The notes under the pieces are model-generated. The model worked only from the letters and a program-made list of their open reading frames with translations, was not told the DNA's origin and did no database searches. This document shows, one piece after another, positions 16,121 through 33,447 of a DNA stretch of 39,646 bases. Made by a program: the position numbers and the translations under genes. Source of the DNA: Methylotenera sp. (lineage in GTDB: Bacteria > Pseudomonadota > Gammaproteobacteria > Burkholderiales > Methylophilaceae); contig NZ_JAUXOY010000024.1 of the NCBI RefSeq assembly GCF_030684185.1, positions 1 to 39,646 of the forward strand, given 5' to 3'. Each line of letters opens with the position of its first letter. Position 1 is the stretch's first letter.

Positions 16121-17008
16121 ATGACTAACTCGCACCATCTCGAAACAATTCAAAGTAGTAGCTTGAAACTGGCAAATAGCCATTATGAGAACTTTCCTGT
16201 AGCCTCTGTCTTTTTGCCGCAACATTTACGCACCCCCATAGCCTTGATTTATAGCTTTGCAAGACAAGCGGATGACTTTGCCGATGAAGGTGAATTAACT
16301 ATTGAGCGTCGATTAGAGTTATTAAACGACTTTCGCGATGAATTAGATTTACTGCACGCATACATCAAGCCCCAAACAGCTTTCTTTAACACTTTAGGCT
16401 CTATGATTAAGGCTAACAAACTGCCTTATGAGCCATTTTATGACTTACTTAATGCCTTTAGCCAAGATGTTACCAAAACTCGCTATGCCAATTATGATGA
16501 AGTGCTGGATTATTGCTCGCGTTCCGCCAATCCTATCGGCAGGTTATTGTTACATCTCTATGGTCAATCCAATACTAGCAATACTCAGCTTTCTGATAAT
16601 ATTTGTTCCGCTTTACAGATTATCAATTTCTTGCAGGACATTGCGATTGATTTTAAAAAAAATGACGGTAAACAACGTATTTATTTGTGCCAGGATGAAA
16701 TGGAGGCCTTTGGCATCACTGAATCACAAATTCAGGAATTTGTTGATGAGAAGCAGGCAACCGATGATAATTGGCAACAGTTTATGCTGTTTAACCTGCA
16801 TCGTGTGAGTGCTTTATTGTACGCTGGCAAGCCGCTCGGACGCATTTTAACTGGGCGTATCGGTTTTGAAATGCGCATGATTATTGCTGGTGGTGAGCGC
16901 ATCATCAGTAAGATGAGTAAGGTTAATGGTGATATATTCAGATTCAGGCCTACCCTGAATCATTGGGATTGGCTCGTGATATTTGTAAAAGCACTGATGA
17001 AAGTATAA
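16121..17008 (+). CDS. hpnC: Hydroxysqualene synthase HpnC
   Basis: A 295-residue squalene/phytoene synthase-family protein. In the three-enzyme bacterial route HpnD makes presqualene diphosphate from two farnesyl diphosphates, HpnC converts it to hydroxysqualene, and HpnE reduces this to squalene. The first aspartate-rich motif is ARQADDFADEGE and the second is NFLQDIAIDFKKNDGKQRIYL. SxxYENFPVASVFLPQHLR near the N-terminus is characteristic of HpnC. It is the first gene of the hpnC-hpnD-hpnE set; hpnD follows after 8 bp. Downstream hopanoid genes such as a squalene cyclase are not present in the window, so the end product (hopanoids or C30 carotenoids) is open. Confidence 0.93.
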   Translation: MTNSHHLETIQSSSLKLANSHYENFPVASVFLPQHLRTPIALIYSFARQADDFADEGELTIERRLELLNDFRDELDLLHAYIKPQTAFFNTLGSMIKANKLPYEPFYDLLNAFSQDVTKTRYANYDEVLDYCSRSANPIGRLLLHLYGQSNTSNTQLSDNICSALQIINFLQDIAIDFKKNDGKQRIYLCQDEMEAFGITESQIQEFVDEKQATDDNWQQFMLFNLHRVSALLYAGKPLGRILTGRIGFEMRMIIAGGERIISKMSKVNGDIFRFRPTLNHWDWLVIFVKALMKV

Positions 17009-17016
17009 GAAAGATA

Positions 17017-17856
17017 ATGACACCACAGCAATATTGTGAAGAAAAAACCGCAAAAAGCGGCTCAAGCTTCTATTACAGCTTTATGTTTTTACCCAAGCAA
17101 AAGCGTGAGGCGATTACTGCCCTTTACGCATTCTGCCGTGAGGTGGATGACATTGCAGATGAGTGTACTGACTTTAACATCGCACAAACCAAGCTTAACT
17201 GGTGGCGCTCTGAAATTGAGAGGTTGTATCAAAGCAAGCCACAACACCCTGTTAGCAAAGCGCTTTTAGACCCGATTAAAACTTACCATCTTGATGCTGA
17301 GCACTTTATAGAGATTATTGATGGCATGGAGATGGATTTAAAATTTAACCGTTATGAAGATTTTAAACAATTGCAGTTATATTGCTATCGTGTCGCCAGT
17401 GTAGTGGGTTTACTTTCAGCGCAGATATTTGGCTTTAGCAATCGAAAAACGCTTAAATTTGCACATGACTTAGGTATCGCTTTTCAACTCACGAATATTA
17501 TCCGCGATGTAGGTGAAGACGCACGTCGTAACCGCATCTATCTGCCTTTAGACGAACTAGCGCAATTCAAAGTTACTGAAGACGACATTTTGCAGAGTCG
17601 TGAGTCTGATGCCGTTAAGAAGTTATTAGATTATCAAATTGAGCGCGCAGAGAGCTACTATGACCGTGCGCTTCGTGAACTCCCAGATGAAGACCATAAA
17701 AGCCAGAGGGTTGGCTTAATGATGGCAGCAATCTATCGTACCTTGTTGCGCGAAATTAATGCCGACGGTGCCCATAAAGTATTAAATTCACGCACATCAC
17801 TTGGCGCATTACGTAAGTTTTGGCTAGCTTTCAATGTATGGATTAAGAACTTTTAA
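17017..17856 (+). CDS. hpnD: Presqualene diphosphate synthase HpnD
   Basis: A 279-residue squalene/phytoene synthase-family protein: GSSFYYSFMFLP near the start, first motif CREVDDIADECTD, second motif NIIRDVGEDARRNRIYLP. The family normally begins M(S/T)PxxYC, so I use the ATG at 17017 (MTPQQYC) with AAGAAAG upstream, instead of an in-frame ATG at 16963 inside hpnC. It condenses two farnesyl diphosphates to presqualene diphosphate. It sits 8 bp after hpnC and 6 bp before hpnE, clearly one transcript. Confidence 0.94.
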   Translation: MTPQQYCEEKTAKSGSSFYYSFMFLPKQKREAITALYAFCREVDDIADECTDFNIAQTKLNWWRSEIERLYQSKPQHPVSKALLDPIKTYHLDAEHFIEIIDGMEMDLKFNRYEDFKQLQLYCYRVASVVGLLSAQIFGFSNRKTLKFAHDLGIAFQLTNIIRDVGEDARRNRIYLPLDELAQFKVTEDDILQSRESDAVKKLLDYQIERAESYYDRALRELPDEDHKSQRVGLMMAAIYRTLLREINADGAHKVLNSRTSLGALRKFWLAFNVWIKNF

Positions 17857-20647: not shown

Positions 20648-22030
20648 CTAATAGCTATCAGCCATATGGCCACTACCAGCATAGTTTTCAAAGCGAGTGT
20701 GCTGACCCATAAATGTTAGCCTTACCCGCCCGATTGGACCGTTACGCTGCTTAGCAATAATAATCTCTGCCGTGCCCTTATCTGGACTGTCTGGATTGTA
20801 GACTTCATCACGATAGATAAACAAAATCACATCGGCATCTTGCTCAATCGCGCCAGATTCGCGCAAGTCACTCATCACAGGGCGTTTGTCTGGCCGTTGT
20901 TCCACACTGCGGTTAAGCTGTGAGAGCGCAACCACGGGGCAATCAAGCTCTTTAGCTAACGCTTTAAGTGAGCGTGAGATTTCAGAAATTTCAGTCGCTC
21001 GATTTTCGCCCTGACGACCTGCGGGTGCGGCCATCAACTGCAGGTAATCAACTACGATTAACCCCAATTTACCTGTTTGACGATGCAATCTGCGCGCCCT
21101 TGCACGCACATCAAAACTGCTTAAGCCGGCGCCTTCATCAATAAAAATCGGCGCTTCATTGAGCTTGCCAAGCGCAGTTGTCAGCTTTTCCCAATCTTCA
21201 TCTTCCAGCTTACCCGTTCGCATGCGGTGCTGATCCAAACGCCCTACGGAGCCAATCATCCGCATCGCAAGCTGTGTTGACGCCATTTCCATTGAGAATA
21301 CGGCCACAGGCAGCCCGGTATCCAACGCCACATTTTCGGCCATGTTGAGTGAAAATGCGGTTTTACCCATTGAAGGCCGCCCCGCTACGATAATTAAATC
21401 ACCACCTTGCATGCCTGATGTCATTGAATCAAGATCGGCAAAACCTGTAGGCACCCCAGTAACATCAGAAGGATTGTCGCGAGAAAATAGTTGGTCAATG
21501 CGGTCTGCCACTTGTGGCAGCAATACTTTAATATCTACAAAGCCCTGAGAACTTCGCTTACCGCCTTCGGCAATCTGAAATATTTTAGCTTCGGCTTCAT
21601 CTAATAGCTGTTGTGCATCGCGGCCATTCGGTGCATATGCACTCTCAGCGATGCCAGAACCCACCACCACCAGTTGCCGCATTACGGCACGCTCATGAAC
21701 GATTTCAGCATAGCGTCTGATATTCGCCGCAGTTGGCGTGCTTTGCGCCAATGCCCCTAAATAAGCAATACCGCCAATGCCAGAGAGTTCAGCAGTGCTT
21801 TCAAGTGATTCAGCTACAGTGACGATATCGGCTGGTCTGTTATGTTCAATCAGCTTAGCAATATGCTGAAATATGGCCTTGTGATCATGTCGATAAAAGT
21901 CGTTTGCGGTGAGAATGTCGGCCACTTTATCAAGCGCTTCATTTTCAAGCAGCAAACCACCGATGACTGATTGTTCAGCCTCAACGGAATGTGGGGGGAT
22001 TTTTAATGCATCTAATTGTTCGTCTGCCAT
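20648..22030 (-). CDS. dnaB: Replicative DNA helicase DnaB
   Basis: The hexameric fork helicase, 460 residues from the chosen start. The N-terminal domain begins PPHSVEAEQSVIGGLL; the RecA-like domain has Walker A GRPSMGKT (Lys 223), the glutamate in FSMEM, Walker B GLIVVDYLQLM, and the KQRNGP arginine-finger loop. I use the ATG at 22030 (MADEQLD) instead of 22048, since a TATAAT box lies between the two and E. coli-type N-termini fit the shorter form. It follows a strong terminator after rplI and precedes radA by 24 bp. A decayed second copy of its C-terminal domain lies at 30381-31307. Confidence 0.97.
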   Translation of the reverse strand: MADEQLDALKIPPHSVEAEQSVIGGLLLENEALDKVADILTANDFYRHDHKAIFQHIAKLIEHNRPADIVTVAESLESTAELSGIGGIAYLGALAQSTPTAANIRRYAEIVHERAVMRQLVVVGSGIAESAYAPNGRDAQQLLDEAEAKIFQIAEGGKRSSQGFVDIKVLLPQVADRIDQLFSRDNPSDVTGVPTGFADLDSMTSGMQGGDLIIVAGRPSMGKTAFSLNMAENVALDTGLPVAVFSMEMASTQLAMRMIGSVGRLDQHRMRTGKLEDEDWEKLTTALGKLNEAPIFIDEGAGLSSFDVRARARRLHRQTGKLGLIVVDYLQLMAAPAGRQGENRATEISEISRSLKALAKELDCPVVALSQLNRSVEQRPDKRPVMSDLRESGAIEQDADVILFIYRDEVYNPDSPDKGTAEIIIAKQRNGPIGRVRLTFMGQHTRFENYAGSGHMADSY

Positions 22031-22036
22031 AGCGTG

Positions 22037-22042
22037 ATTATA
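22037..22042 (-). promoter_or_regulatory. -10 box for dnaB, possibly leaderless
   Basis: A perfect TATAAT lies on the minus strand 6 nt before the ATG at 22030; the expected transcription start coincides with that ATG. No ribosome binding site is visible and the -35 region (TTCGGT) is weak and overlaps the rplI terminator hairpin. Confidence 0.45.
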
Positions 22043-22048
22043 ACGCAT

Positions 22049-23566: not shown

Positions 23567-23729
23567 TGATACTCCTTTTGGATTAAAGCCACCTGCAAAA
23601 CGTTTAACAGTTTCTTATTAAACATACACAAAGCATTTGGTAAAAATACATCAAATACTTAAAAGTTATGTTGCAGTGTGACAAGGTTAAATTTAAATTT
23701 ACTTAGTAATCTTACCAAGCAAGCGCGCG

Positions 23730-23758
23730 ATTATAGAGAAAAGCAGTGAACTAATCAA
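23730..23758 (-). promoter_or_regulatory. Sigma-70 promoter of the rpsF operon
   Basis: On the minus strand TTGATT (23753-23758) and TATAAT (23730-23735) are 17 bp apart, followed by a G/C-rich GCGCGC discriminator typical of stringently controlled ribosomal promoters. The start of transcription would be near 23723, giving a leader of about 157 nt. Just after it, CTTGGTAA-GAT-TTACTAAG can form a short hairpin. Confidence 0.75.
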
Positions 23759-24065
23759 ATTATATTAACGAAATCAATCGTTTTAAAAGACCTTTTTTAC
23801 AATCAGCACCCTGTCTACGCCTCAACATTAGAATCATTAGCCAATACTCATTGCTGATATCCGATTTGGAAGCTTGTATCAAAACATAAGGCATGCGTGG
23901 TTCAGGAGCGTTGGATCAGCAATGGTTCTGTCTGCTCAGTTTTTCTACCTAAATAACTATATACAATGACCAATCAGCACAAATCTGAATTAGTCAGAAC
24001 CAACTTGATACATTTTGTGGGTTAATGCATAAGCTGCGATTTTATGACTATATATGCCAAAAAAA
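23759..24065. other. Gene-free interval between the rpsF promoter and the accessory block
   Basis: About 300 bp of AT-rich sequence. I see no gene of convincing length, no tRNA and no obvious insertion-sequence end. It marks the left boundary of the accessory genes; no direct repeat with the region near 33260 was recognised by eye. Confidence 0.4.
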
Positions 24066-24584
24066 CTAAGGTTTAACACCAAATCTTAAAACAAGATCTT
24101 CTCTATAATTATCGAGCACCCATTTTGACTTGTTAATTAAAGCATCATAATCAATCATTAATGTATTAAGTGCTTTGACATTGTTTGTTGCTTTACTAAG
24201 CTGTGAACTTACAAGCTCTTTTCTTAGGAACACTTGTGATTCAACTAATAGACGATGGCTTGTCAGATGAGACATTACAGCCGCATGAAAATCATTGAGC
24301 TCATATGTGTCTTTTATATCATTTGTTTTAAAAATGAATGCCAAAGAGCGCTGATCAAACAAGTTTCCATGGTCACTTTTAGGCACAAAGTTAGTGATAA
24401 GGGTTAATTGGTCATATTCTTCAAATAAGTACTTTACTAACTCGCTCATTAACTTGTAGTTCTTATGAGTAGCGTTATTCATAACCTCTGCATTGATGTC
24501 TATCATATGCACATCATGAGCCTTGAATAGCTTTTTCACGTTGATCTGAAAATCATGTGAATATATCAACAGGCTTTTACTCAT
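24066..24584 (-). CDS. Unknown protein, 172 aa, coupled to the nucleotidase
   Basis: I do not recognise a family. The protein is soluble, without signal peptide or membrane helix. The N-terminal part alternates strand-like and helix-like segments (KSLLIYSHDF, VHMIDINAEV, QLTLITNFVPKS), compatible with an alpha/beta fold, and the C-terminal third is helical (VESQVFLRKELVSSQLSKATNNVKALNTLM). Its ATG overlaps the end of the 5'-nucleotidase gene by 8 bp, so it is translated in step with it. It is the last gene of the minus-strand accessory run, followed by a long gene-free interval. Function unknown. Confidence 0.7.
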   Translation of the reverse strand: MSKSLLIYSHDFQINVKKLFKAHDVHMIDINAEVMNNATHKNYKLMSELVKYLFEEYDQLTLITNFVPKSDHGNLFDQRSLAFIFKTNDIKDTYELNDFHAAVMSHLTSHRLLVESQVFLRKELVSSQLSKATNNVKALNTLMIDYDALINKSKWVLDNYREDLVLRFGVKP

Positions 24585-25488
24585 TTGCTACCCCATGTGG
24601 CACATGCCCTGTCGCCACATGCTGACGTGCGGATTCACAATGTTTTTGTTGGTCATCAAAGAATATATCTGCCCCGAACGCCTTCAGGAATACCCCTTTA
24701 TCCTTTCCGCCAAGGAATAACGCTTCATCAATACGAATATTCCATGCACGTAAGGTACGGATGACGCGCTCATGTGCAGGCGCAGCACGTGCGGTAATAA
24801 GCGCAGTGCGTATTGGTGACTTATCTGCAGGATATTCCAATTGAATCTGATGCAGCATTGCGAGGAAGTTCTTGAATGGGCCACCCAGCATTGGTTGCTT
24901 TGCAACCATGACTTCATTGCCATTAAAAGCTTCCAGTCCATTTTGCTTGTATATTCGCTCTGATTCATCAGAAAACAGTACTGCATCTCCATCGAAAGCA
25001 ATACGAAGTTGAGCTGAGTCTTTCGCGTCTGGTGATTGTATTGAAGCAGAAGATAAAATAGTAGCAGCCGCAAATCCAGCTTCCAGCGCCCTGCGTACGT
25101 CATCAGGATCTGCCGAAAGAAATAAATGTGTACCAAATGCTGAAATGTAGGGATGAGTACTTGCGCCTCTTGTGAATGCCGCACGTCCAATTTCTAATTG
25201 GTGATGCTGAATTGAATTAAAGACGCGTAGTCCAGTATCTGCACTGTTTCTTGATAGTAGAATCACTTCCACACGGGGATTGGCAAGATCACGTTCATTG
25301 AGTGCCAGAAGTTTCTTAACAAGACCGAATGCAACCCCAGGGTTAAGTGGCACATCTTCATTCTTAACCTGGTGGTTACAATACGCGTTAACGCCATCAT
25401 TCTCAAATATGGTATGACTTTCATCCAGATCGAATAAGGCACGAGATGAAACGGCAATAATTAATTTTTCGGCGATCAAATTACTCAA
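24577..25488 (-). CDS. Cytosolic-type 5'-nucleotidase (cN-I-like)
   Basis: A 303-residue protein of the 5'-nucleotidase family related to eukaryotic cN-I (PF06189 type). Typical segments are IAVSSRALFDLDESHTIFE with the HAD-like DLD motif, EVILLSRNSADTGLRVFNSI, the second acidic motif IAFDGDAVLFSDESE, TALITARAAPAHERVIRTLR and DIFFDDQQKHCE. It would dephosphorylate nucleoside monophosphates in the cytosol. The start codon appears to be TTG at 25488, directly next to the TAG of the DUF2779 gene. In this setting next to two nuclease genes, nucleotide breakdown could be part of a shared pathway; alternatively it is a housekeeping salvage enzyme caught in the block. Confidence 0.88.
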   Translation of the reverse strand: MSNLIAEKLIIAVSSRALFDLDESHTIFENDGVNAYCNHQVKNEDVPLNPGVAFGLVKKLLALNERDLANPRVEVILLSRNSADTGLRVFNSIQHHQLEIGRAAFTRGASTHPYISAFGTHLFLSADPDDVRRALEAGFAAATILSSASIQSPDAKDSAQLRIAFDGDAVLFSDESERIYKQNGLEAFNGNEVMVAKQPMLGGPFKNFLAMLHQIQLEYPADKSPIRTALITARAAPAHERVIRTLRAWNIRIDEALFLGGKDKGVFLKAFGADIFFDDQQKHCESARQHVATGHVPHGVANE

Positions 25489-26967
25489 CTAAGATCCATT
25501 CTCAAAATAATGTGCAATACGCACCATTGCCAGCGTATCACGTTCGCAATATAACAGTAGAGCATCACTTAATTGCTGGCTACGTTCTGGCAAGGTTTTT
25601 GGGTGCATGATTTCAGAAAAAGCTTCCTGCGCCATACCTCCATTCGCAACTTCCAAATTATCATAAGCTAGGTCTGGTGCAATGGTGGGTAGTACCGCTT
25701 TGATTGACCATGAGCCGCGCATATCAGGGTGGTAGTAGTGTTCTCGCGCAATGGGTAACAAGTCAACGATGCGATCAATCGCGGCTTCTAGTGCAGGTGC
25801 TAGATCAGGATAATACTCAGCGAGCTCTTGCATTCTGCTGCGCTCAAAGGGTGCGTTATACACAAAAACTGGACCGCTCATACCAACAGCATCAATCAAA
25901 CTCATCGCAAATGGTCTGCGAGGATCGCTTTGACCATCAGCTAAAAATGCGCAATGCGTCATCACACCTTTTGCTGTTTCAATATGGCATGACCACTGAA
26001 ATGGCACCTGCATGTAAGGTCGGGTACCAGCCCAAACTGGCACGGCAGGGTTGATGGTTTCGAAGTCAATGTAATAGCGTGGGTAAGGGAGCTCGGCTAG
26101 AATTTCTCCAGCTTTAGGGTTCAGCTCAGTTTGCCCACTTTTGGTTACACGCCAAACGCGCTGATGATTGAAATTATCAAGGCGTTCTTCAGGAACATCG
26201 CGCAAATCAATATACCCTTCTGCGCGTAAAATAGCAGGTAATTTTCCTCCACGAGGTAAAACTTCAGGAGGGTACCCGTCTGCTACATCTATTCGAGGGG
26301 AGCAGTAACTCATAAACGGGCATGTAAACGGCTCAGCGCATTGGCTTCCTGCGTTAATGCAAGGTTCATCACCAGATAAGGTTTCACGCGCAGCATTGAT
26401 CCAATCAGGAACGGCATCTTTCATGTCTGAAATTTGTTCACTAATATCCGCATAGTGGAACAGGCCTTGATAATCGCCACCGCCGGGATAAACAAATGAA
26501 TTGTTGATATGTGCAATTTCCACGCTAGTCAGCGACAAATCTGCTTGCTGAGCCACCCAGCTTTGAATTGCTGCATCGGTTAGATAGTAATCTTTAACGC
26601 TGGTAGATGACTTTACTTCAACCATGCGATATCCATTTTGATCAGGCAACATCAAATCCGCGCGAATCAGTAATCCGTCAGCTTGTAGCGTTGCTTCAAA
26701 AATCGGACGTTTCTCACCAGCAAGAATCGCTTTAGTATCAATCACTGCTTGGGCAAGGTTATCTCCATCAATGAGCACGCCATCAGGATAATGTTGTTGC
26801 GCCAGTTCACCTACATAAGTGCCCGTAGCAAAGCGGGCCTGGTTGCCATCGTCGATTTCTTCTAACTCTGGATGATATACTTTTAGCCATAAGCGTTTTG
26901 GGCATTGGCGATGCAGTAAGATGCGTGATTTGGAAAGCCCGTGGCGTTTTATTTTTGTAGTATTCAT
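25489..26967 (-). CDS. DUF2779 protein: Cas4-like nuclease fused to a DEDD exonuclease domain
   Basis: A 492-residue two-domain protein. The N-terminal half looks like a Cas4/RecB-family nuclease: SKSRILLHRQCPKRLWLK with Cys 22, the PD-(D/E)xK core IRADLMLP (Asp 104) and VEVKSS (Glu 117-x-Lys 119), then a cysteine group Cys 210, 216 and 222 (CAEPFTCPFMSYC) that together with Cys 22 could hold an iron-sulfur cluster. The C-terminal half is DEDD-exonuclease-like: YYIDFETI (Asp 301, Glu 303), VYNAPFE, VDLLP (Asp 402) and YCERDT (Asp 477). No CRISPR array or other cas gene is in the window. It lies 52 bp after the DUF262 gene and is contiguous with the nucleotidase gene. Confidence 0.88.
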   Translation of the reverse strand: MNTTKIKRHGLSKSRILLHRQCPKRLWLKVYHPELEEIDDGNQARFATGTYVGELAQQHYPDGVLIDGDNLAQAVIDTKAILAGEKRPIFEATLQADGLLIRADLMLPDQNGYRMVEVKSSTSVKDYYLTDAAIQSWVAQQADLSLTSVEIAHINNSFVYPGGGDYQGLFHYADISEQISDMKDAVPDWINAARETLSGDEPCINAGSQCAEPFTCPFMSYCSPRIDVADGYPPEVLPRGGKLPAILRAEGYIDLRDVPEERLDNFNHQRVWRVTKSGQTELNPKAGEILAELPYPRYYIDFETINPAVPVWAGTRPYMQVPFQWSCHIETAKGVMTHCAFLADGQSDPRRPFAMSLIDAVGMSGPVFVYNAPFERSRMQELAEYYPDLAPALEAAIDRIVDLLPIAREHYYHPDMRGSWSIKAVLPTIAPDLAYDNLEVANGGMAQEAFSEIMHPKTLPERSQQLSDALLLYCERDTLAMVRIAHYFENGS

Positions 26968-27019
26968 AGTTTAATTTAATGATATTTATATATGATTTAT
27001 CAAAATTAATATTTAGAAT

Positions 27020-28900
27020 CTATGCTTGTAGAGACTCGGTTTCTAGACTCAGCTGATCAATTGCATCATCATCAGCCTCTTCAACGATATCTGGAAGTTG
27101 ACAGATCACTAAGCCAACTTCTGTTTTCCAGCGCTTATTAATCCATGCTTCTAATTCACAACGTCTTTCAATGAATTCTTTTGGCGTCCAGTCTGGATAC
27201 ATTGAAATTTTACGCTCTTGTCTAATGTCAGAATTGCTGTAGCTAGGACCCTGCCCTGGTATTCCTTTTTTGCGAGAAAACTCAAAGTTCAGATAATTTG
27301 AGTTATTTTGTGTCAAGACTAGGTTTGCAATGTCATGCAAGTAAGTATTGATTTCATCTGGACTCCACTTAGATGTCCAATTAGAATTAACTTTTGGTGT
27401 TTGAGGAAGAATATGTTCAATCGTCGAGTCACCGAGTTGTTCCCATATCAAGTTTGGCTCTTTCCCTTTACCTTCGGTAGCTAGAAGATGAAGTTCATAT
27501 TCAAACAAAGTATATTTTAGGCGATTCCTACTACCATACCAGTTGCTTGGTTTTGTATTTGTTTCTTTAAAAGATTCTTCGCTGGCGTAGTAACGAGTCA
27601 ATTCATATATTGAGGCAATAACAACGTCGATTAATTGTGGTTTATTTAAAATCTCGAATGCCCATCTGTGAAAGCTAGATTTCCCGGCATTACTGCGTTT
27701 TCCTTGGAATAAAAAGACCCTGTACGCATAGCATTCTAAAGCCTGTAGGAGCTTAATATAATCCTGTTCAGATATACTTCCACAGCTTCTATGATTACGA
27801 ACTGCAACCATTAACGGTAAAAAATTAGCAATGTTGCCAGTATGATGAATTTTACTTAGCCACAAGAATTCATCCTGAGAAAGAACATTGATTTTAGTTG
27901 GACTAATGATAATGGCATAGTGACTAGATATGACTGCTAACTCATTAGCGAACTGTTCAATGAATTTCCTAGTTACCTCTTGGGAGCGCTTTGTAAATGA
28001 CCTCAGCGGAATATAGTCATCACCCTTAAACCCTTTGTAGCCGACCCAGTTTGCAGGTGAGTGTGTACAATACAATGTCCATGCGATTCTTAGGCACTGA
28101 TCCTCGTCACCAGTGCATGATCCAATATTTGTGTAGGTGTCCTTCCAATTTTTATTTATTATAGCTGTCAGGGAACTGCGATCATTAATATCAGCATTCC
28201 TAGAAATCCAGTGCATAAGGTAGTTCTTCAGCAACTCAAGTATAGAAAGATCTTTGCCACGGGAATTCATCAGTTCAAACGTCATGCCAATCTCGCACTC
28301 CTCTTCAATCGTATAATAGGTAAAATGGAGCTTGGTGGTGATTGCTTTATAAAGTTCCTTAAGATATGCAATACCATCAACACCAGGTCTTGCAAGCTGA
28401 TTGTCAATGTGTGCCTGAAAGCGATTGTATGCATCAATGAGACGTTTTTCATGCGAAGACTTTGCTACGGTATTTGGTCGTCCATTCTTAAGAAGGTCGT
28501 AGAAAATGCCACCAGTATCATTATTTAGTGTTAGTTTGCAAATTGGACCTGAATACAGAAAGTCAGAGATGTCACGTTGGTATTCCAATTCGCCTTTTTT
28601 TATAAGCGCGCGAATAATTACGGAGAGATAAAGACACGAAGTTGTCAATCGCTGTTGACCGTCAACCACATCCACGACCTTCACCTCTATTCTTTCGTAA
28701 TCTAGAGTCTTAGCGTTGCTTCCACGATATACAACTACTGTGCCAGTATAGTGACTAGTTACCTTCTTATCCTCCACCAATGCGTCAATATCTTGAATAA
28801 AATCAATTAATTGATCCTTCTCCCAAGCATACCCGCGTTGGTAATCAGGAATTTGAAAGAGAGACTCTGCAAAAAGGGTTTTTAGTGTTTTTTTATCCAT
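27020..28900 (-). CDS. DUF262/DUF1524 protein (GmrSD-like nuclease)
   Basis: A 626-residue protein joining both halves of GmrSD-type modification-dependent restriction systems. The DUF262 (ParB/Srx-like NTPase) domain has FQIPDYQRGYAWEKDQL (residues 16-31) and the hallmark VVDGQQRLTT (78-87). The C-terminal DUF1524 HNH-type nuclease domain has IEHILPQ (His 496) and DIANLVLTQNNSNY (about 523-536), the HxxP and Asn-bearing parts of that motif. Relatives cleave phage DNA with glucosylated or otherwise modified bases; other members have different or unknown targets. SD signals are not decisive for the start; the ATG at 28900 (MDKKTLKTLF) gives the family-typical distance to the first motif. It precedes the DUF2779 gene by 52 bp in the same direction. 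Confidence 0.92.
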   Translation of the reverse strand: MDKKTLKTLFAESLFQIPDYQRGYAWEKDQLIDFIQDIDALVEDKKVTSHYTGTVVVYRGSNAKTLDYERIEVKVVDVVDGQQRLTTSCLYLSVIIRALIKKGELEYQRDISDFLYSGPICKLTLNNDTGGIFYDLLKNGRPNTVAKSSHEKRLIDAYNRFQAHIDNQLARPGVDGIAYLKELYKAITTKLHFTYYTIEEECEIGMTFELMNSRGKDLSILELLKNYLMHWISRNADINDRSSLTAIINKNWKDTYTNIGSCTGDEDQCLRIAWTLYCTHSPANWVGYKGFKGDDYIPLRSFTKRSQEVTRKFIEQFANELAVISSHYAIIISPTKINVLSQDEFLWLSKIHHTGNIANFLPLMVAVRNHRSCGSISEQDYIKLLQALECYAYRVFLFQGKRSNAGKSSFHRWAFEILNKPQLIDVVIASIYELTRYYASEESFKETNTKPSNWYGSRNRLKYTLFEYELHLLATEGKGKEPNLIWEQLGDSTIEHILPQTPKVNSNWTSKWSPDEINTYLHDIANLVLTQNNSNYLNFEFSRKKGIPGQGPSYSNSDIRQERKISMYPDWTPKEFIERRCELEAWINKRWKTEVGLVICQLPDIVEEADDDAIDQLSLETESLQA

Positions 28901-29003
28901 TATTATTCCAAGTTGGTTCGCTATGAGTTAAATGTTAGTAAGCCTGATGGTGCATTTTAAACTTTATCTATAATGTTTTTGATATTTAACTAAGTTTGTT
29001 CGT

Positions 29004-29732
29004 TCAGTGACCAAAGTGCTTAGATAGCCACCCAGCAAAATAATAATCTGGGCTACCTAGACATTCCATGCCTACCATGCGCTCCTCTAAAATTTGAAGT
29101 AATGTTTGCTTGGTTGGTGGATAATGAATATTTCCTAGTGTGTTCTTTATATCAGGTTTCATCATTACCCAATTTGAGCGCATTTGGTTCGCTTCAGTGA
29201 TGCTAACATCAGCAATCATGCGAGTGATCTCAATGAACTGATAAGACCACATCAACATTCCTCGTGATTCGCGCAGCACAGCATCAATCCAAGGGTCGGT
29301 TGTCGTAGTTAAGGCCAGCAGATTTTTTCCTGTCCTGAGATGCATCAGGTACAGTTTCGGCACCATGAGCCAATCTCCCCAAGATGTCGGATTAAACTGC
29401 GCTACCCATTCATCAAAGTCTGTGGCGCTTTCAGGCGGATGCGCAGTCTCGGAAGCTATTGAATAATCCAGCTCTTCATAAGCAAGCAAAACTAAATTAG
29501 ATACTGAGCCAGCTGTCTTTTCGCAGGCTATCATTGCCCAGACGCTTTCTGGAATATTCTCAGCGCTATCTTTGTCTTGAAAGGCAGTCTTAAACCAAGG
29601 TTGAATCGCCATGCTTAACATTTCAGCTCGAAATTCATGGTAATTATTTAATGTTGCAAAATCACCCTTAACCTTTCTGATCTCTATTAACTGATGATTA
29701 TCTTGCTGTGTTTCAGCTGAACTCAATACCAT
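29004..29732 (-). CDS. Unknown protein, 242 aa, first gene of the accessory minus-strand run
   Basis: I do not recognise a family. It is a soluble, mildly acidic protein without signal peptide, rich in Trp and Met, with long helical stretches (LRESRGMLMWSYQFIEITRMIADV, residues about 152-176, and TLLQILEERMVGM). No catalytic motif is evident. It is transcribed with the nuclease genes, 103 bp upstream of the DUF262 gene, and divergent from the plus-strand pair starting at 29874. The position suggests an accessory or sensor component of that group, but nothing in the sequence proves it. Confidence 0.75.
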   Translation of the reverse strand: MVLSSAETQQDNHQLIEIRKVKGDFATLNNYHEFRAEMLSMAIQPWFKTAFQDKDSAENIPESVWAMIACEKTAGSVSNLVLLAYEELDYSIASETAHPPESATDFDEWVAQFNPTSWGDWLMVPKLYLMHLRTGKNLLALTTTTDPWIDAVLRESRGMLMWSYQFIEITRMIADVSITEANQMRSNWVMMKPDIKNTLGNIHYPPTKQTLLQILEERMVGMECLGSPDYYFAGWLSKHFGH

Positions 29733-29873
29733 TTATCTGTACCCCCATTACTGTGATTCTCTCAAATAGTTCTGAAGCAATTATATTGACCGCATGCGAC
29801 ATGATGTGACGCAGTTGGCGTGTTAAATGCCATTTCTAGATTTAATTAACGCTACATGATCACCGAGATTTTT

Positions 29874-30326
29874 ATGCCAAATACAATAAAACAGGACATA
29901 CAAGAATTAAAGATTCCCCTATTGGCTAATAGCGCAACGCCTGATACTGACTTTATGGCAGCGCTATCTACCACAACGGAAGACTTCAGCTTGGTCTTGC
30001 AGGTGTCGCCGAATGATGTGATTAGATCAACAGGTATGGTAGCCATTCCATCTGGAATTATCACCACCAGTGATGTTGGACGAGTGCTTGAAGCTGCCAT
30101 GTCATTGCTGTGTAAAGATGATGTGATTATGCATGCATCACCTACATGCAGCTTTGTGGTTGATGGCGTTATGCAGACAGCATTTATGCCTATCGGTATG
30201 CCAGCAACAAGGTTGGATGTCACCGTTGCGCTAGTACGTATTAATGAGGGGATGCTGCAACGTTGGCGTGACTGGGCTACGGCATTGGGGCGCAATATAG
30301 TTGCTTGGCGTATTGAAGCGCTTTAA
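29874..30326 (+). CDS. Unknown protein, about 150 aa, partner gene of the DnaB paralogue
   Basis: No family recognised. I favour the ATG at 29874 (MPNTIKQDIQELK); an in-frame ATG at 29856 adds six residues and neither has a strong ribosome binding site. The protein has a beta-rich middle (FSLVLQVSPNDVIRSTGMVAIPSGIITTSD) and a C-terminal Trp-rich helix (MLQRWRDWATALGRNIVAW). The opposite strand is also open over most of this length, but the plus-strand frame ends in good spacing (54 bp) to the DnaB-like gene, which supports it. Function unknown. Confidence 0.65.
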   Translation: MPNTIKQDIQELKIPLLANSATPDTDFMAALSTTTEDFSLVLQVSPNDVIRSTGMVAIPSGIITTSDVGRVLEAAMSLLCKDDVIMHASPTCSFVVDGVMQTAFMPIGMPATRLDVTVALVRINEGMLQRWRDWATALGRNIVAWRIEAL

Positions 30327-30380
30327 TCGCAACTATGCTTACATGTAACAAATAACTGATGAGAATCGAAAGGCAAACGT

Positions 30381-31307
30381 ATGAATGAGCATGAACAAAA
30401 TACCTTGAAATTGGAAGCTGAGCTGATTGATGATGGTTTCATAGATATGTCAAAGCTAGTATCTAATGCATTTGATCGCATCATAAATAAAATAGAAACC
30501 CCTGAAGCTATTACTGGAATTCCTACCTGCTTTCCAAGTTTGGATCGCTACACATCTGGTTTGCAACGTGGCGATTTAATCGTTGTGGCTGGCAGACCAT
30601 CGATGGGCGAACGATTCTTTGTGCGTGATATAGCCATGCACATTGCCTTAGTCCATGATTTACCTGTGGCCATGATGGATGCGGAGAAAAGTGGCGAGTA
30701 TCAGGCAATGCGGATGATTGCTTCAATGGCTAAAATGGATTACGCCTTGCTGCATCATTGCCAAATTAGCAACGATGAGTCTGATCTGCTTAAAAGTTCT
30801 TTTGCTTTTCTGAATGATGCCCCGATCTATTTTTCAGCGTTGATTCCAGCTACGGTACATGAGCTAGGAGAGCAACTGCGTAAGCTGAATCAAAGAACCG
30901 GAAAGTTAGGGCTGATTGTCGTGGATTGCCTGCCAGAGTTGAAATTATCGGGTGAAAAAATGAATGATGACTATGCAATTAAACTTGCACACACATCACG
31001 CCGCCTTAAGGCTTTAGCTCATGAACTGGACGTTCCCATCATTGTGCTATCACCAATCGAGCGCGAGATAGAAGAGCGTTTTAACAAATCGCCCCAGTTA
31101 ACTGATTTACCAGGGATGGCCGCAATTGCTAACGCGGCAGATTTAGTTTTAATGGTCTATCGAGACGAAGTTTGCGACCCTGATACCGAAGAAAAAGGTT
31201 TGGCTAATATTATTGTTTCAAGGAATCGTAATGGATTTATTGGCTCATTTAAACTGAAGTTCGATGGGCGATATGGAAGTTTTGAAGAAGTAAATCATGG
31301 TGTGTGA
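30381..31307 (+). CDS. DnaB C-terminal-domain paralogue lacking the Walker A Lys-Thr
   Basis: A 308-residue protein that aligns throughout with the linker and RecA-like domain of the DnaB encoded at 20648-22030: SGLQRGDLIVVAGRPSMG, RTGKLGLIVVDCL, KALAHELDVPIIVLS, VYRDEVCDPDTEEKGLANIIVS. It lacks the whole N-terminal domain. The P-loop GRPSMGKT has become GRPSMGER (Lys to Glu at 77, Thr to Arg at 78), LSQLNR has become LSPIER, LRESGAIEQDAD has become LPGMAAIANAAD, and KQRNG has become RNRNG. Walker B Asp 182 and Glu 102 remain. It should not hydrolyse ATP, yet the frame is intact and otherwise well kept, so it is likely a functional non-enzymatic protein, perhaps binding DnaB or its loader. 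Confidence 0.9.
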   Translation: MNEHEQNTLKLEAELIDDGFIDMSKLVSNAFDRIINKIETPEAITGIPTCFPSLDRYTSGLQRGDLIVVAGRPSMGERFFVRDIAMHIALVHDLPVAMMDAEKSGEYQAMRMIASMAKMDYALLHHCQISNDESDLLKSSFAFLNDAPIYFSALIPATVHELGEQLRKLNQRTGKLGLIVVDCLPELKLSGEKMNDDYAIKLAHTSRRLKALAHELDVPIIVLSPIEREIEERFNKSPQLTDLPGMAAIANAADLVLMVYRDEVCDPDTEEKGLANIIVSRNRNGFIGSFKLKFDGRYGSFEEVNHGV

Positions 31308-31405
31308 TAATCCTTGTGAATCGGCGCAGGTGAATAGGTAATATGAATATTTGTAGGCTTTTAGGCTACATAGCTACACAACAGAAACAATCATAGAGGT
31401 TTTAA

Positions 31406-32161
31406 ATGGCATTAGTGAATGATAGATTTTCAAAATGGGCAACAGGTTTTTCTGGTTGTGATGGTGGTGATATTGGCTCACCTCATAGTAAAAGCATTTG
31501 GTATTGCGGCATTGAGTGGGGAGGCGGACATCCTGATGATGAGCATGAACTAATCAACAAGGTCCTTTCTAATGACGTTGAATTTCCCTCGGAAGGTTAT
31601 ACAAGTGATGACAGTCCGCCAGGGTGGCTGTATAACCTTGCGTATAGGTTCAATTGGCAAGCCATGAAATTGCTTGCAGCTGTAAGTGGCGACAGCATTA
31701 CTTCATACAAAGTCTTTGCAGAAAAAGTCAAACCATTCACCAAAGGAGAAAAAGGTTATTTCAAAATGAATTTGTACCCTTTGGCTTTTGTAAATACATC
31801 GCATGATTTATGGAAAAATGGCTTTGCAAAGGCAACGGGTCTTGATACTAAAAAGGATTATCACGATTGGATCAAAGCAAATAGATTTCCAATTATGAAA
31901 ACCTGGATGGATACGTATTCACCTAAGTTGATTATATGTGTCGGAAAAAGTTATCTACCAGAATTTTCACTCGCATTTTTTGGAGAGGAGTTAACATTTG
32001 AGTCTGAAATAATTGATGACCGTGAATTGAGTTGGGCTGTTAATAAAAACGGTACTATTATGGTCGTCCTGCCATTTCTAGGAAATAGAAATGGGTTAAA
32101 CAAGAATGTTTCAATTCAAAAATTCGGGGATAGAATTCGTGAGTTACTGACTACACTTTAA
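31406..32161 (+). CDS. Unknown protein, 251 aa, weak UDG-superfamily-like pattern
   Basis: Not confidently recognised. The order of segments recalls uracil-DNA-glycosylase-like folds: an early glycine-rich loop after a strand (SIWYCGIEWGGGHP), a middle segment FKMNLYPLAFVNTSHD, a strand followed by Gly-Lys (YSPKLIICVGKSYLPEF) and a late loop after a strand (MVVLPFLGNRNGLNKN) at about residue 225. These are only loose correspondences. A good ribosome binding site (AGAGG) precedes the ATG. It follows the DnaB-like gene by 98 bp on the same strand and is convergent with the WYL regulator. It may belong to the same accessory group or have arrived separately. Confidence 0.7.
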   Translation: MALVNDRFSKWATGFSGCDGGDIGSPHSKSIWYCGIEWGGGHPDDEHELINKVLSNDVEFPSEGYTSDDSPPGWLYNLAYRFNWQAMKLLAAVSGDSITSYKVFAEKVKPFTKGEKGYFKMNLYPLAFVNTSHDLWKNGFAKATGLDTKKDYHDWIKANRFPIMKTWMDTYSPKLIICVGKSYLPEFSLAFFGEELTFESEIIDDRELSWAVNKNGTIMVVLPFLGNRNGLNKNVSIQKFGDRIRELLTTL

Positions 32162-32176
32162 TCTAAATTAGGTTTT

Positions 32177-33196
32177 CTAACTTGGTGCTTCAGTGTGGTA
32201 AATTACATGTAGTGATTGCGCCATATTAAAAAACTCATCTCTCAGCAAAGTCGGCTCTAGCACTTCTACTTCCTGCCCAAAGCCTTTTAACCACCAGCGT
32301 AATTGTGCTGTGTCTGGCACGGTGGCTTGCAGGCGCACCCAACCAGATTGATCCGGTGTTATCTGTTGATCTAAGGATAGTGGCGTTTCCCATAAATGCT
32401 CGGCAGCAGGTACTGTAATGCGAACTACCAGTTTTATTAGACCGTTTTCTTCAAAGCCTAAAGCGCCTTGGCTAATGTAATGCTTAAGATCAAAACCTTC
32501 TGGTGTAGTGGAAGGTTGATCCAATACTTTAGCCGCCTGAATGCGGTGCACGGCAAACAATAGAATGTCGGTGTAGTTGTATAGCGTAGCAACCAAATAG
32601 GTCACCGCGCCACGTTGCACAATGCCTAGTGGATGAGCTGGATAGGTTTTAGTTTCACTATGCTCGCGTGGGGTATAACTTATTTCAAGTTGTTGGCCAG
32701 TTAATAAAGCAGAATGGACGGCTTCAATAATTTCTTCAGGATAATTGGGAGGAATTAAAGGCTGGCCAGCGGATACAATTGCTACTTTCTTCCGCCAACT
32801 TGCCAACCTCTTTACACCATCGCCACTATTTAAGACACCTTCAGCACATTTAAAGTATGGAGCAAGCGAATCTAACAAACTAGCAGGTAACAAAGCTGCC
32901 AAATGATCATGCGCAAGTTCTAGCGTCAGTGCTTGCAATGGCGACATGGTAGGCAATGCAAATGCCTCAGCATCCTTACTCCAGCTCCATCCATAAGGCC
33001 GTGAGCGATCATTAGAAATAAGCGGGAAGATTCCAGAAAGTGACAGTAAGTCACGCTCAATAGTGCGTTTACCGACTTCAAATCCTTCGGACGCTAAGCG
33101 CTCAGTAATCTCACGTGCGGTTATCTGACGCGGATATTGAGGAATACATTTAAGCATCGCCCATTGGCGTAGTTGTGTGTCATTATGATTTTGCAT
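32177..33196 (-). CDS. WYL-domain transcriptional regulator
   Basis: About 339 residues: an N-terminal winged HTH (RQITAREITERLASEGFEVGKRTIERDLLSLS, the DeoR-like form common in this family), then a WYL domain (LEISYTPREH, YPAHPLGIVQRGAVTYLVATLYNYTDILLFAVHRIQAA) and a C-terminal WCX extension with LRWWLKGFGQEVEVLEP. WYL regulators sense ligands such as nucleic acids or nucleotides and often control phage-defence genes. I use the ATG at 33196, with GAGGA 4 nt upstream, since longer frames (to 33259) would run through a strong hairpin. It closes the accessory block next to uvrB. Confidence 0.9.
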   Translation of the reverse strand: MQNHNDTQLRQWAMLKCIPQYPRQITAREITERLASEGFEVGKRTIERDLLSLSGIFPLISNDRSRPYGWSWSKDAEAFALPTMSPLQALTLELAHDHLAALLPASLLDSLAPYFKCAEGVLNSGDGVKRLASWRKKVAIVSAGQPLIPPNYPEEIIEAVHSALLTGQQLEISYTPREHSETKTYPAHPLGIVQRGAVTYLVATLYNYTDILLFAVHRIQAAKVLDQPSTTPEGFDLKHYISQGALGFEENGLIKLVVRITVPAAEHLWETPLSLDQQITPDQSGWVRLQATVPDTAQLRWWLKGFGQEVEVLEPTLLRDEFFNMAQSLHVIYHTEAPS

Positions 33197-33235
33197 CATG
33201 TCCTCATTGATTGGATGATATGTTTCTAGTTTATT

Positions 33236-33282
33236 CGCAAAGCGAAAATCTCGGGGCAAGCCCCCGGAATTATCGCTTTGCG
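33236..33282. repeat. Nested inverted repeat upstream of the WYL gene
   Basis: Perfect 10-bp outer arms CGCAAAGCGA (33236-33245) and TCGCTTTGCG (33273-33282) enclose an inner GGGG-CAAG-CCCC hairpin. It could end uvrB transcription coming from the right, regulate the WYL gene, or be a dispersed chromosomal repeat. It lies 40 bp before the WYL start. Confidence 0.6.
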
Positions 33283-33369
33283 GTTAAAAAACTTTACGCG
33301 CTTTGACTGAAATGACGAAGTTAGGTATTTTTTGAGGGTGTCTGGATTTTGTATAAAACAACACTACAT

Positions 33370-33429
33370 TTGTTTATTGATTATTTGTTTATTGATTACT
33401 TGTTTATTGATTATTTGTTTATTGATTTT
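33370..33429. repeat. Four tandem copies of a 15-bp AT-rich unit
   Basis: TTGTTTATTGATTAT is repeated four times at 33370, 33385, 33400 and 33415, with one change in unit 2 (last base C) and two in unit 4. It lies 18 bp past the uvrB stop codon. Such a tandem repeat is likely to vary in copy number between strains. Confidence 0.9.
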
Positions 33430-33447
33430 TTTCTACAAAGTTCTAAA

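Follow-up and report, generated by a model that had tools for sequence, protein, structure and literature searches.

The question raised by this locus is why a bacterium keeps a DnaB-like gene open over its whole length after several of the motifs of a helicase have been replaced. The gene lies at 30381..31307 on the forward strand of the window, that is, of the whole stretch of 39,646 nucleotides from a Methylotenera sp. contig that was analyzed. It is open from its ATG for 308 codons, and a GAAAGG stretch upstream of the ATG reads like a ribosome-binding site. No expression signal emerged: the eight promoter-like sites are fewer than in shuffled sequence (mean 12.4), and no terminator turned up.

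By Pfam, BLASTP and alignment, the product is a paralogue of the DnaB motor domain, apparently inactive, that comprises the linker helix and the RecA domain. Compared by BLASTP with the chromosomal DnaB of the same window (20648..22048, reverse strand), which is encoded outside the island described below and serves here as reference, it has 114 identities in 286 positions (40%, query residues 19-302, E 8e-73). The Pfam profile DnaB_C (PF03796) is matched with 201 bits against a cut-off of 27 from position 1 to 254 of 255, which corresponds to the full-length RecA-like C-terminal domain of DnaB. The N-terminal, primase-binding domain is missing, the alignment beginning at residue 169 of the chromosomal protein. 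The scores against the NCBIfam models for the DnaB equivalog (TIGR00665, 251.4 bits) and the phage DnaB-type helicase (TIGR03600, 185.2 bits) are below the respective cut-offs of 385.25 and 498.65. A search of its own genome gave two matches, the protein itself and the chromosomal dnaB. An earlier, sequence-only reading of the locus had proposed a DnaB-domain paralogue in an intact frame, in agreement with these searches.

The window protein differs from the chromosomal DnaB by the replacements of GKT by GER, DYLQ by DCLP, SQL by SPI, and LRESGAIEQDAD by LPGMAAIANAAD, two glutamines having become prolines. The altered P-loop, the proline in place of the sensor glutamine, the exchanged loop and the absent N-terminal domain had all been described from the sequence, and all are present in the alignment. 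The Walker A motif (30591..30614, forward strand) reads GRPSMGER instead of GRPSMGKT. In the segment DCLPELKLSGEKMNDD (30924..30971, forward strand) the Walker B aspartate is kept, the sensor glutamine is a proline, and the loop after it is rewritten and conserved between family members; residues 185-204, which form the loop after Walker B, keep 1 of 12 DnaB invariants in the window protein. Further along, LPGMAAIANAAD (31107..31142, forward strand; BLASTP and alignment) replaces the DnaB loop LRESGAIEQDAD, which we take to be the loop that contacts single-stranded DNA. Helicase action by the 308-residue protein is very unlikely, because the Mg-coordinating residue of the P-loop, a sensor and the DNA loop have been lost, if the roles of these elements are as we assume them to be from DnaB structures.

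The fold appears to have been retained. An AF2 model of the single chain, of moderate quality (pLDDT 71.8, pTM 0.76, three sequences, five models 48-72), matches DnaB chains of the PDB, such as 4esv, 9dls and 6kza, when searched with Foldseek. The best E-value is 5e-22 and the TM-score by query is 0.72; the rmsd values of the listed matches are large (3.6 to 21). The model supports an intact DnaB fold and says nothing on partners.

Two further intact copies were found, both in the family Gallionellaceae. The first, on a contig of a metagenome-assembled genome (L038), has 208 identities in 306 positions (68%) to the window protein. It was reached by scanning a collection of genome contigs with six exact peptide patterns, a procedure that finds close relatives only and gave 20 stretches, one of them with a relative. 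The second (L057, genome G541) is 56% identical and scores 444.7 bits in a profile search of 158 genomes of the family, that of L038 included. These two are the intact copies among the matches listed for the 158 genomes, where L057 is followed by scores near 280 bits from frames about 460 residues long. Among the 61 genomes around the window, its own included, the inactive DnaB is present only in the window's own genome. A profile search of 399 genomes of the order gave no further member among the matches listed, the second-best scoring 294 bits in a 461-residue frame. As both searches, of 158 and of 399 genomes, show best matches only, diverged members could be hidden. A fourth locus (L098, genome G544) holds a 70-residue C-terminal remnant of the inactive DnaB.

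A 306-residue DnaB-like protein with the motif GKS (L058) was rejected as a member of the family. Phage and plasmid helicases were likewise set aside: the 20 listed of 727 phage matches are 34-38% identical to the window protein and the 20 listed of 1186 plasmid matches 36-40%, and all of the matched records, phage and plasmid, lie below 60% identity. The named features among the listed rows are helicase, Ban or primase/helicase. Viral contigs contained no relative of the protein by the queries P0001, A2 and A4, and no relative of the FtsA fragment, the FtsZ mimics or the 251-residue protein that are described below.

The rarity of the gene, confined to one of the 61 genomes and to two intact copies among the matches listed for the 158, and the remnant in L098 speak for a decaying dnaB duplicate carried along by a defence island. 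A dying duplicate was also the outcome that the sequence-only reading had set against its own proposal. The intact copies argue otherwise. All three share the Walker A change from threonine to arginine, DC[L/F]PELKL, SP and DLPGM. Of the P-loop lesion described earlier, this arginine recurs but the exact GER does not, as the change from lysine to glutamate is private to the window protein and both L038 and L057 read GKR. All 42 chromosomal DnaB rows (41 distinct) have the Walker A threonine. Their initial selection relied on a motif that ends in GK; when the choice was repeated without it, GKT was found in 41 of 41 loci. Among the residues that are fixed in 42 of 42 chromosomal proteins and have undergone the same replacement in all three members are T78R, Y183C, Q185P, L186E, Q225P, R244P, E245G, S246M, E250A, Q251N and D252A. 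The arginine, glutamate and serine of the single-stranded DNA loop and the sensor glutamine are lost in all three, while LRESG is found in 41 of 41 chromosomal loci.

The inactive DnaB is under purifying selection. By the NG86 method, dN/dS is 0.18 for the window and L038 (dN 0.220, dS 1.215) and 0.17 for L038 and L057 (dN 0.245, dS 1.416); these are the two estimable pairs, the window-L057 pair being saturated at synonymous sites. The three copies form one clade, supported at 100/100, that branches inside the tree of chromosomal DnaB proteins on a long stem (4.15 changes per column); the place of the clade and its nearest chromosomal neighbour are weakly supported in this tree, which came with warnings of long branches and an unsettled bootstrap. 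For the intact copies the decaying duplicate is therefore rejected on their shared derived residues and dN/dS. Three open frames, the recurrence of the lesions in two further intact genes and the conservation of the rewritten loops likewise count against it, and it is largely refuted and highly improbable for these copies, although L098 keeps no more than its 70-residue remnant.

The copies also show signs of horizontal spread. The pS of the window-L038 pair is 0.60, lower than the 0.81-0.89 between the chromosomal dnaB of the window and 13 rows of the Gallionellaceae family, and the WYL protein of the window island is 79% identical over 336 residues to that of L098. Horizontal transfer is read from these two values.

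There are 196 positions at which 90% or more of the 42 chromosomal rows agree; the window protein keeps the residue at 94 of them, so that the earlier description of the remaining DnaB segments as nearly verbatim was overstated. All three members keep 74 of these invariants and all three have lost 76. The losses are concentrated in functional loops; around Walker A the window protein keeps 9 of 13. The rewritten loops are conserved among the members (DC[LF]PELKL and DLPGM.AIANAADLVL) and therefore look rebuilt rather than eroded, which may point to a specific, newly acquired function and away from passive mimicry.

On one such view the protein is an NTPase that has been repurposed for another substrate: its rewritten loops would form a new active or binding site, and it would work together with the 251-residue neighbour or the FtsA fragment. 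The catalytic glutamate and the Walker B aspartate are retained in all three members and the Walker A lysine in two of them (L038 and L057), so that nucleotide binding or residual hydrolysis is possible; in addition, DCLPELKLSGEKMNDDYA is identical between the window protein and L038. However, the last Walker A residue is arginine in all three, the window protein has also lost the lysine, and L057 has no arginine at what we take to be the position of the arginine finger in DnaB-like proteins. A repurposed NTPase is accordingly regarded as quite improbable.

The binding partners first suggested for a dead DnaB fragment included primase and the helicase loader. Primase binds the N-terminal domain of DnaB, and a primase decoy is unlikely because this domain is absent. 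Phages act on the helicase-loader step, according to PMC4887207, and loaders, lambda P among them, bind the LH-DH module of DnaB, which carries a conserved tryptophan in its determinant helix (DH), according to PMC9912922. With the module defined from that source and the limits of its segments set by our own reading of the alignment, the window protein keeps 5 of 9 LH invariants and 3 of 11 DH invariants. L038 and L057 each keep 4 of the 11 in the DH, none of the 11 is kept in all three members, and the tryptophan at position 134 is lost in all three (replaced by S, S and T). A plain loader decoy is weakened, since the DH is poorly kept and its tryptophan lost; a mimic that serves as bait would thus have to be something other than a straightforward copy of that site.

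The surroundings of the gene provide further evidence. It belongs to an acquired island of 9.9 kb inserted between rpsF and uvrB (23567..33447). Same-genus stretches from 8 of 36 genomes were compared, and both flanking genes were present in seven: their spacing is 0.2-0.7 kb in five (G036, G012, G010, G013 and G027), 1.0 kb in G032 and 2.5 kb in G009. The island encodes a 172-residue protein and, on the reverse strand, a 5'-nucleotidase-family protein (24577..25488, PADLOC PDC-S08), a nuclease-like DUF2779 protein with a weak Cas4 match (25489..26967), a GmrSD-type protein resembling type IV restriction enzymes (27020..28900) and a 242-residue protein (29004..29732). The last diverges from the gene of a 156-residue FtsA SHS2-domain fragment (29856..30326, forward strand), which matches PF02491 (E 7.9e-10, 39.4 bits, cut-off 25.4), has no matched ATPase domain and may truly start at the ATG at 29874. 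The inactive DnaB and a 251-residue protein without a Pfam match (31406..32161, forward strand) follow the FtsA fragment on the same strand, separated by 54 and 98 bp, and an HTH-WYL-WCX regulator (32177..33259, reverse strand) completes the set. The nuclease cluster noted from the sequence is supported, the neighbourhood being nuclease-bearing and defence-like. The adjacent gene that had been called an unknown partner does exist, 54 bp upstream, and is identified as the FtsA fragment.

Judged by eye, the 251-residue protein resembles uracil-DNA glycosylase folds. A search of 274 genomes of the class with its alignment found two, the window's own genome and one marginal match. PADLOC 2.0.0 matched the GmrSD-type and WYL neighbours and gave 0 families for the inactive DnaB and for the FtsA fragment; no BREX model was matched among the nine island proteins, as judged for the GmrSD protein from 25 of 30 families listed. 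At the uvrB-side edge of the island there is a short tandem repeat (33349-33420) that translates as repeated LFIDY. Elsewhere in the window, two adjacent and slightly overlapping frames (16121-17008 and 16963-17856) are homologous to each other (E 7e-24).

Pieces of cell-cycle proteins lie near the inactive DnaB in 4 of 4 carriers (the window, L038, L057 and L098); the first three were reached through DnaB alone, L098 was fetched for an FtsK-gamma match, and L038, L057 and L098 are short contigs. The suggestion that the neighbours of the homologues be inspected was borne out, as related neighbours surround the copies that carry most of the same lesions. L038 has an FtsZ-type frame that is truncated where the contig stops, an FtsK-gamma-DnaA AAA+ fusion followed by the inactive DnaB, and a WYL-type HTH protein; the fusion does not match the DNA-binding domain of DnaA. 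In L057, a DnaA AAA+ module is fused to the inactive DnaB (571 residues) and the next gene joins a DnaB_C domain with an intact GKT to FtsK-gamma (345 residues), so that some hub copies are strung together on one polypeptide. Three FtsZ paralogues stand in tandem in this locus, which also has a GmrSD-like gene and genes of the SIR2, HDAC and HAD types. L098 carries WYL, an HTH protein, FtsK-gamma and an FtsA paralogue, truncated by the end of the contig, beside the 70-residue remnant. As a control, none of 8 neighbourhoods of chromosomal dnaB from the same genus (145 kb) holds an FtsZ, FtsA, DnaA or FtsK-gamma piece.

These arrangements could be read as a mobile element's own replication and segregation machinery, in which FtsK-gamma, the DnaA AAA+ module and DnaB would form an initiator-loader complex and FtsZ-like proteins would serve in segregation. 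The order of the pieces in L038, the fusion in L057 with FtsK-gamma on the next gene, and the second DnaB_C of L057 with its GKT are all in its favour. However, no DnaA, FtsK-gamma or FtsZ piece was found in the window island, the DNA-binding loop is replaced, and neither the FtsA fragment nor the degraded loops of the FtsZ paralogues would be explained; we therefore consider such machinery improbable.

The other imitated proteins have been altered as well. All seven FtsZ mimics (three in L057, and one each in L038, L096, L101 and L106) depart from GGGTGTG (T4) or NxDxxD (T7), six of them at T7, while both motifs are present in 13 of 13 chromosomal FtsZ proteins, also when these are chosen without the motifs. 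Among five DnaA pieces, compared with chromosomal rows that were picked by a P-loop motif, two lack the second Walker B acid and three the sensor-2 arginine, L103 being mostly unaligned there; the pieces of L038 and L104 keep both. Further loci contain related sets: L099 has WYL, an HTH protein and separate FtsK-gamma and DnaA pieces. L098, L099, L096, L101 and L106 do not test the association, because they were fetched for FtsZ or FtsK-gamma/DnaA matches. L035 (G073), reached through the FtsA fragment, carries DUF2779, WYL, a homologue of the 251-residue protein (41%) and an FtsA SHS2-type fragment that is a distant homologue of the window's (22.4 bits, below the Pfam cut-off of 25.4); no DnaB piece was found in it. 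No WYL match was obtained in the fetched stretches of the FtsZ loci L096, L100, L101 and L106.

A strict system of DUF2779, WYL and a mimic was considered and then given up. Nine plasmid loci were examined, seven (of 31 matched records) reached through DUF2779 and two (of 6) through the 251-residue protein; cell-cycle pieces are absent from eight, and the ninth (L112) has an FtsZ-like gene. Three of the plasmid loci (L110, L112 and L113) have an annotated WYL gene next to DUF2779, L111 being unannotated.

Several other observations were made at these loci. Distant FtsZ-like proteins in L102, L107, L108 and L109 (48-105 bits) were excluded from the mimic family; the first protein of L102 and those of L108 and L109 have GGGTGGG or GGGTGSG. 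Their genes (L102:6987-7667, L107:9106-9903, L108:5145-5795 and L109:8431-9966) lie less than 10 kb from a WYL gene, and in three of the four cases from DUF2779 too. FtsZ-like proteins at L101:9624-10451 (-), L107:9106-9903 (+) and L112:5562-6752 (-) have an apparent N-terminal twin-arginine signal, which we take to be a Tat motif. One such gene is found near DUF2779-WYL on a plasmid of Rhodoferax. Export would be odd for an FtsZ-like protein. In L096:543-1757 (-), FtsK-gamma is fused to an FtsZ paralogue in one frame of 404 residues. L098:3194-4252 (-) and L103:2234-3583 (+) have a further stretch in common before the DnaA part, which in L098 comes after FtsK-gamma. The HTH protein (L038:4266-4832 (-), L057:631-1152 (+), L098:2209-2763 (+) and L099:7940-8461 (+)) has an N-terminal HTH that matches that of the WYL regulator (68% over 76 residues, L057 against the window) and a different C-terminal part; it adjoins the WYL gene in L098 and lies at most 1 kb from it in L099. 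In L104:6700-11991 (G595), a full-length dnaB, a 276-residue DnaA AAA+ piece and a DUF2779-WYL pair are found side by side.

Acquired islands with WYL-type and nuclease genes thus imitate several hubs, many of them in copies whose catalytic motifs are broken, and interference based on binding is the simplest reading. The inactive DnaB would be a non-enzymatic mimic, consisting of the DnaB motor domain and linker helix but no N-terminal domain, with replacements at the last position of the P-loop, at the sensor glutamine and in the loop that grips DNA, and would belong to a horizontally moving, defence-type family of islands that gathers altered host cell-cycle pieces (DnaB, DnaA, FtsZ, FtsA and FtsK-gamma). 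Presumably expressed under the WYL-type regulator, it would bind a protein that normally meets DnaB and keep that protein occupied. The favoured targets are proteins of invaders aimed at the replication and division hubs, for which the mimic would be a decoy. We prefer this reading tentatively, at somewhat less than an even chance. Against mimicry, some pieces keep their catalytic motifs (the second DnaB_C of L057, with GKT, and the DnaA of L038 and L104), ordinary defence genes in the island could account for its spread, and most of the plasmid loci reached through DUF2779 or the 251-residue protein (8 of 9) are free of cell-cycle pieces.

A self-directed brake on the cell cycle would use the same proteins in another way. 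Once the WYL regulator is released on phage infection or DNA damage, the inactive DnaB would join or titrate the replisome as a dominant negative while the FtsA and FtsZ pieces stop division, leading to dormancy or abortive infection. All of the imitated proteins are indeed cell-cycle hubs, many without catalytic residues but with the fold kept. Hda-like inhibitors consist of a DnaA-type AAA+ module without a DNA-binding domain, and the DnaA module of the islands, which also has no DNA-binding domain, resembles them. Co-assembly with the host DnaB is doubtful, however, because the identity is only 40% and the stem is long, and one inhibitor would probably suffice, whereas the islands gather several mimics. 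WYL regulators are tied to the control of DNA-damage responses and phage defence in PMC9122601, which also speaks for a brake. We consider the brake rather unlikely on balance; even so, it and the decoy appear to be close rivals.

The decoy reading can be extended to the islands as a whole, which would then form a decoy immune system, that is, mobile sets of inactive, fast-diverging copies of cell-cycle hubs that serve, under a WYL-type sensor, as bait for the proteins with which phages and mobile elements take over or halt replication and division. This broader proposal is doubtful, but the content of the islands suggests that they work by imitating the replication and division machinery of the host. 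If the clusters act as decoys or brakes, bacteria can protect themselves with disabled copies of their own proteins of replication and division. The clusters would then point to the host proteins worth protecting and could lead to the phage factors directed against these proteins. As decoys, they would have a counterpart in plants, whose immunity uses integrated decoys.

What appears to be new is the cluster of cell-cycle mimics; the fold of the protein itself is an ordinary DnaB fold. No system with such clusters was noticed among the open-licence papers listed for decoys with FtsZ/DnaB, inactive or paralogous DnaB, FtsZ paralogues in defence islands, FtsK gamma with DnaA, GmrSD/WYL/DUF2779, and phage action on DnaB. 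In PADLOC, a weak match to mad8 is the only one for the DnaA/DnaB fusions of L057, and the one FtsZ mimic that was run gave none. The mimic resembles the replicative helicase DnaB (TIGR00665, PF03796) in the RecA-like motor and linker helix over its whole length and in a predicted fold that matches DnaB structures. It differs in lacking the N-terminal domain, in the Walker A threonine-to-arginine and sensor glutamine-to-proline changes, in the altered single-stranded DNA loop and determinant helix, and in its score of 251 against the required 385 bits. Hda-like DnaA paralogues and other regulatory pseudo-enzymes are replication-protein paralogues lacking a domain, and like them the inactive DnaB may act by binding; the likeness is one of description, and the present family imitates several hubs together in a mobile island. 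With the WYL/BrxR-regulated phage-defence islands that contain GmrSD (PMC9122601), the window island shares an HTH-WYL-WCX regulator and a GmrSD-type gene in one acquired island, but it matches no BREX model and adds host cell-cycle mimics, which the available part of that paper does not mention. The phage hijackers of the helicase loader, 77ORF104 and a phage loader homologue, as presented in PMC4887207, are engaged in a conflict at the same point, the helicase-loader step, but here the altered piece of helicase is carried by the bacterium and not by the phage.
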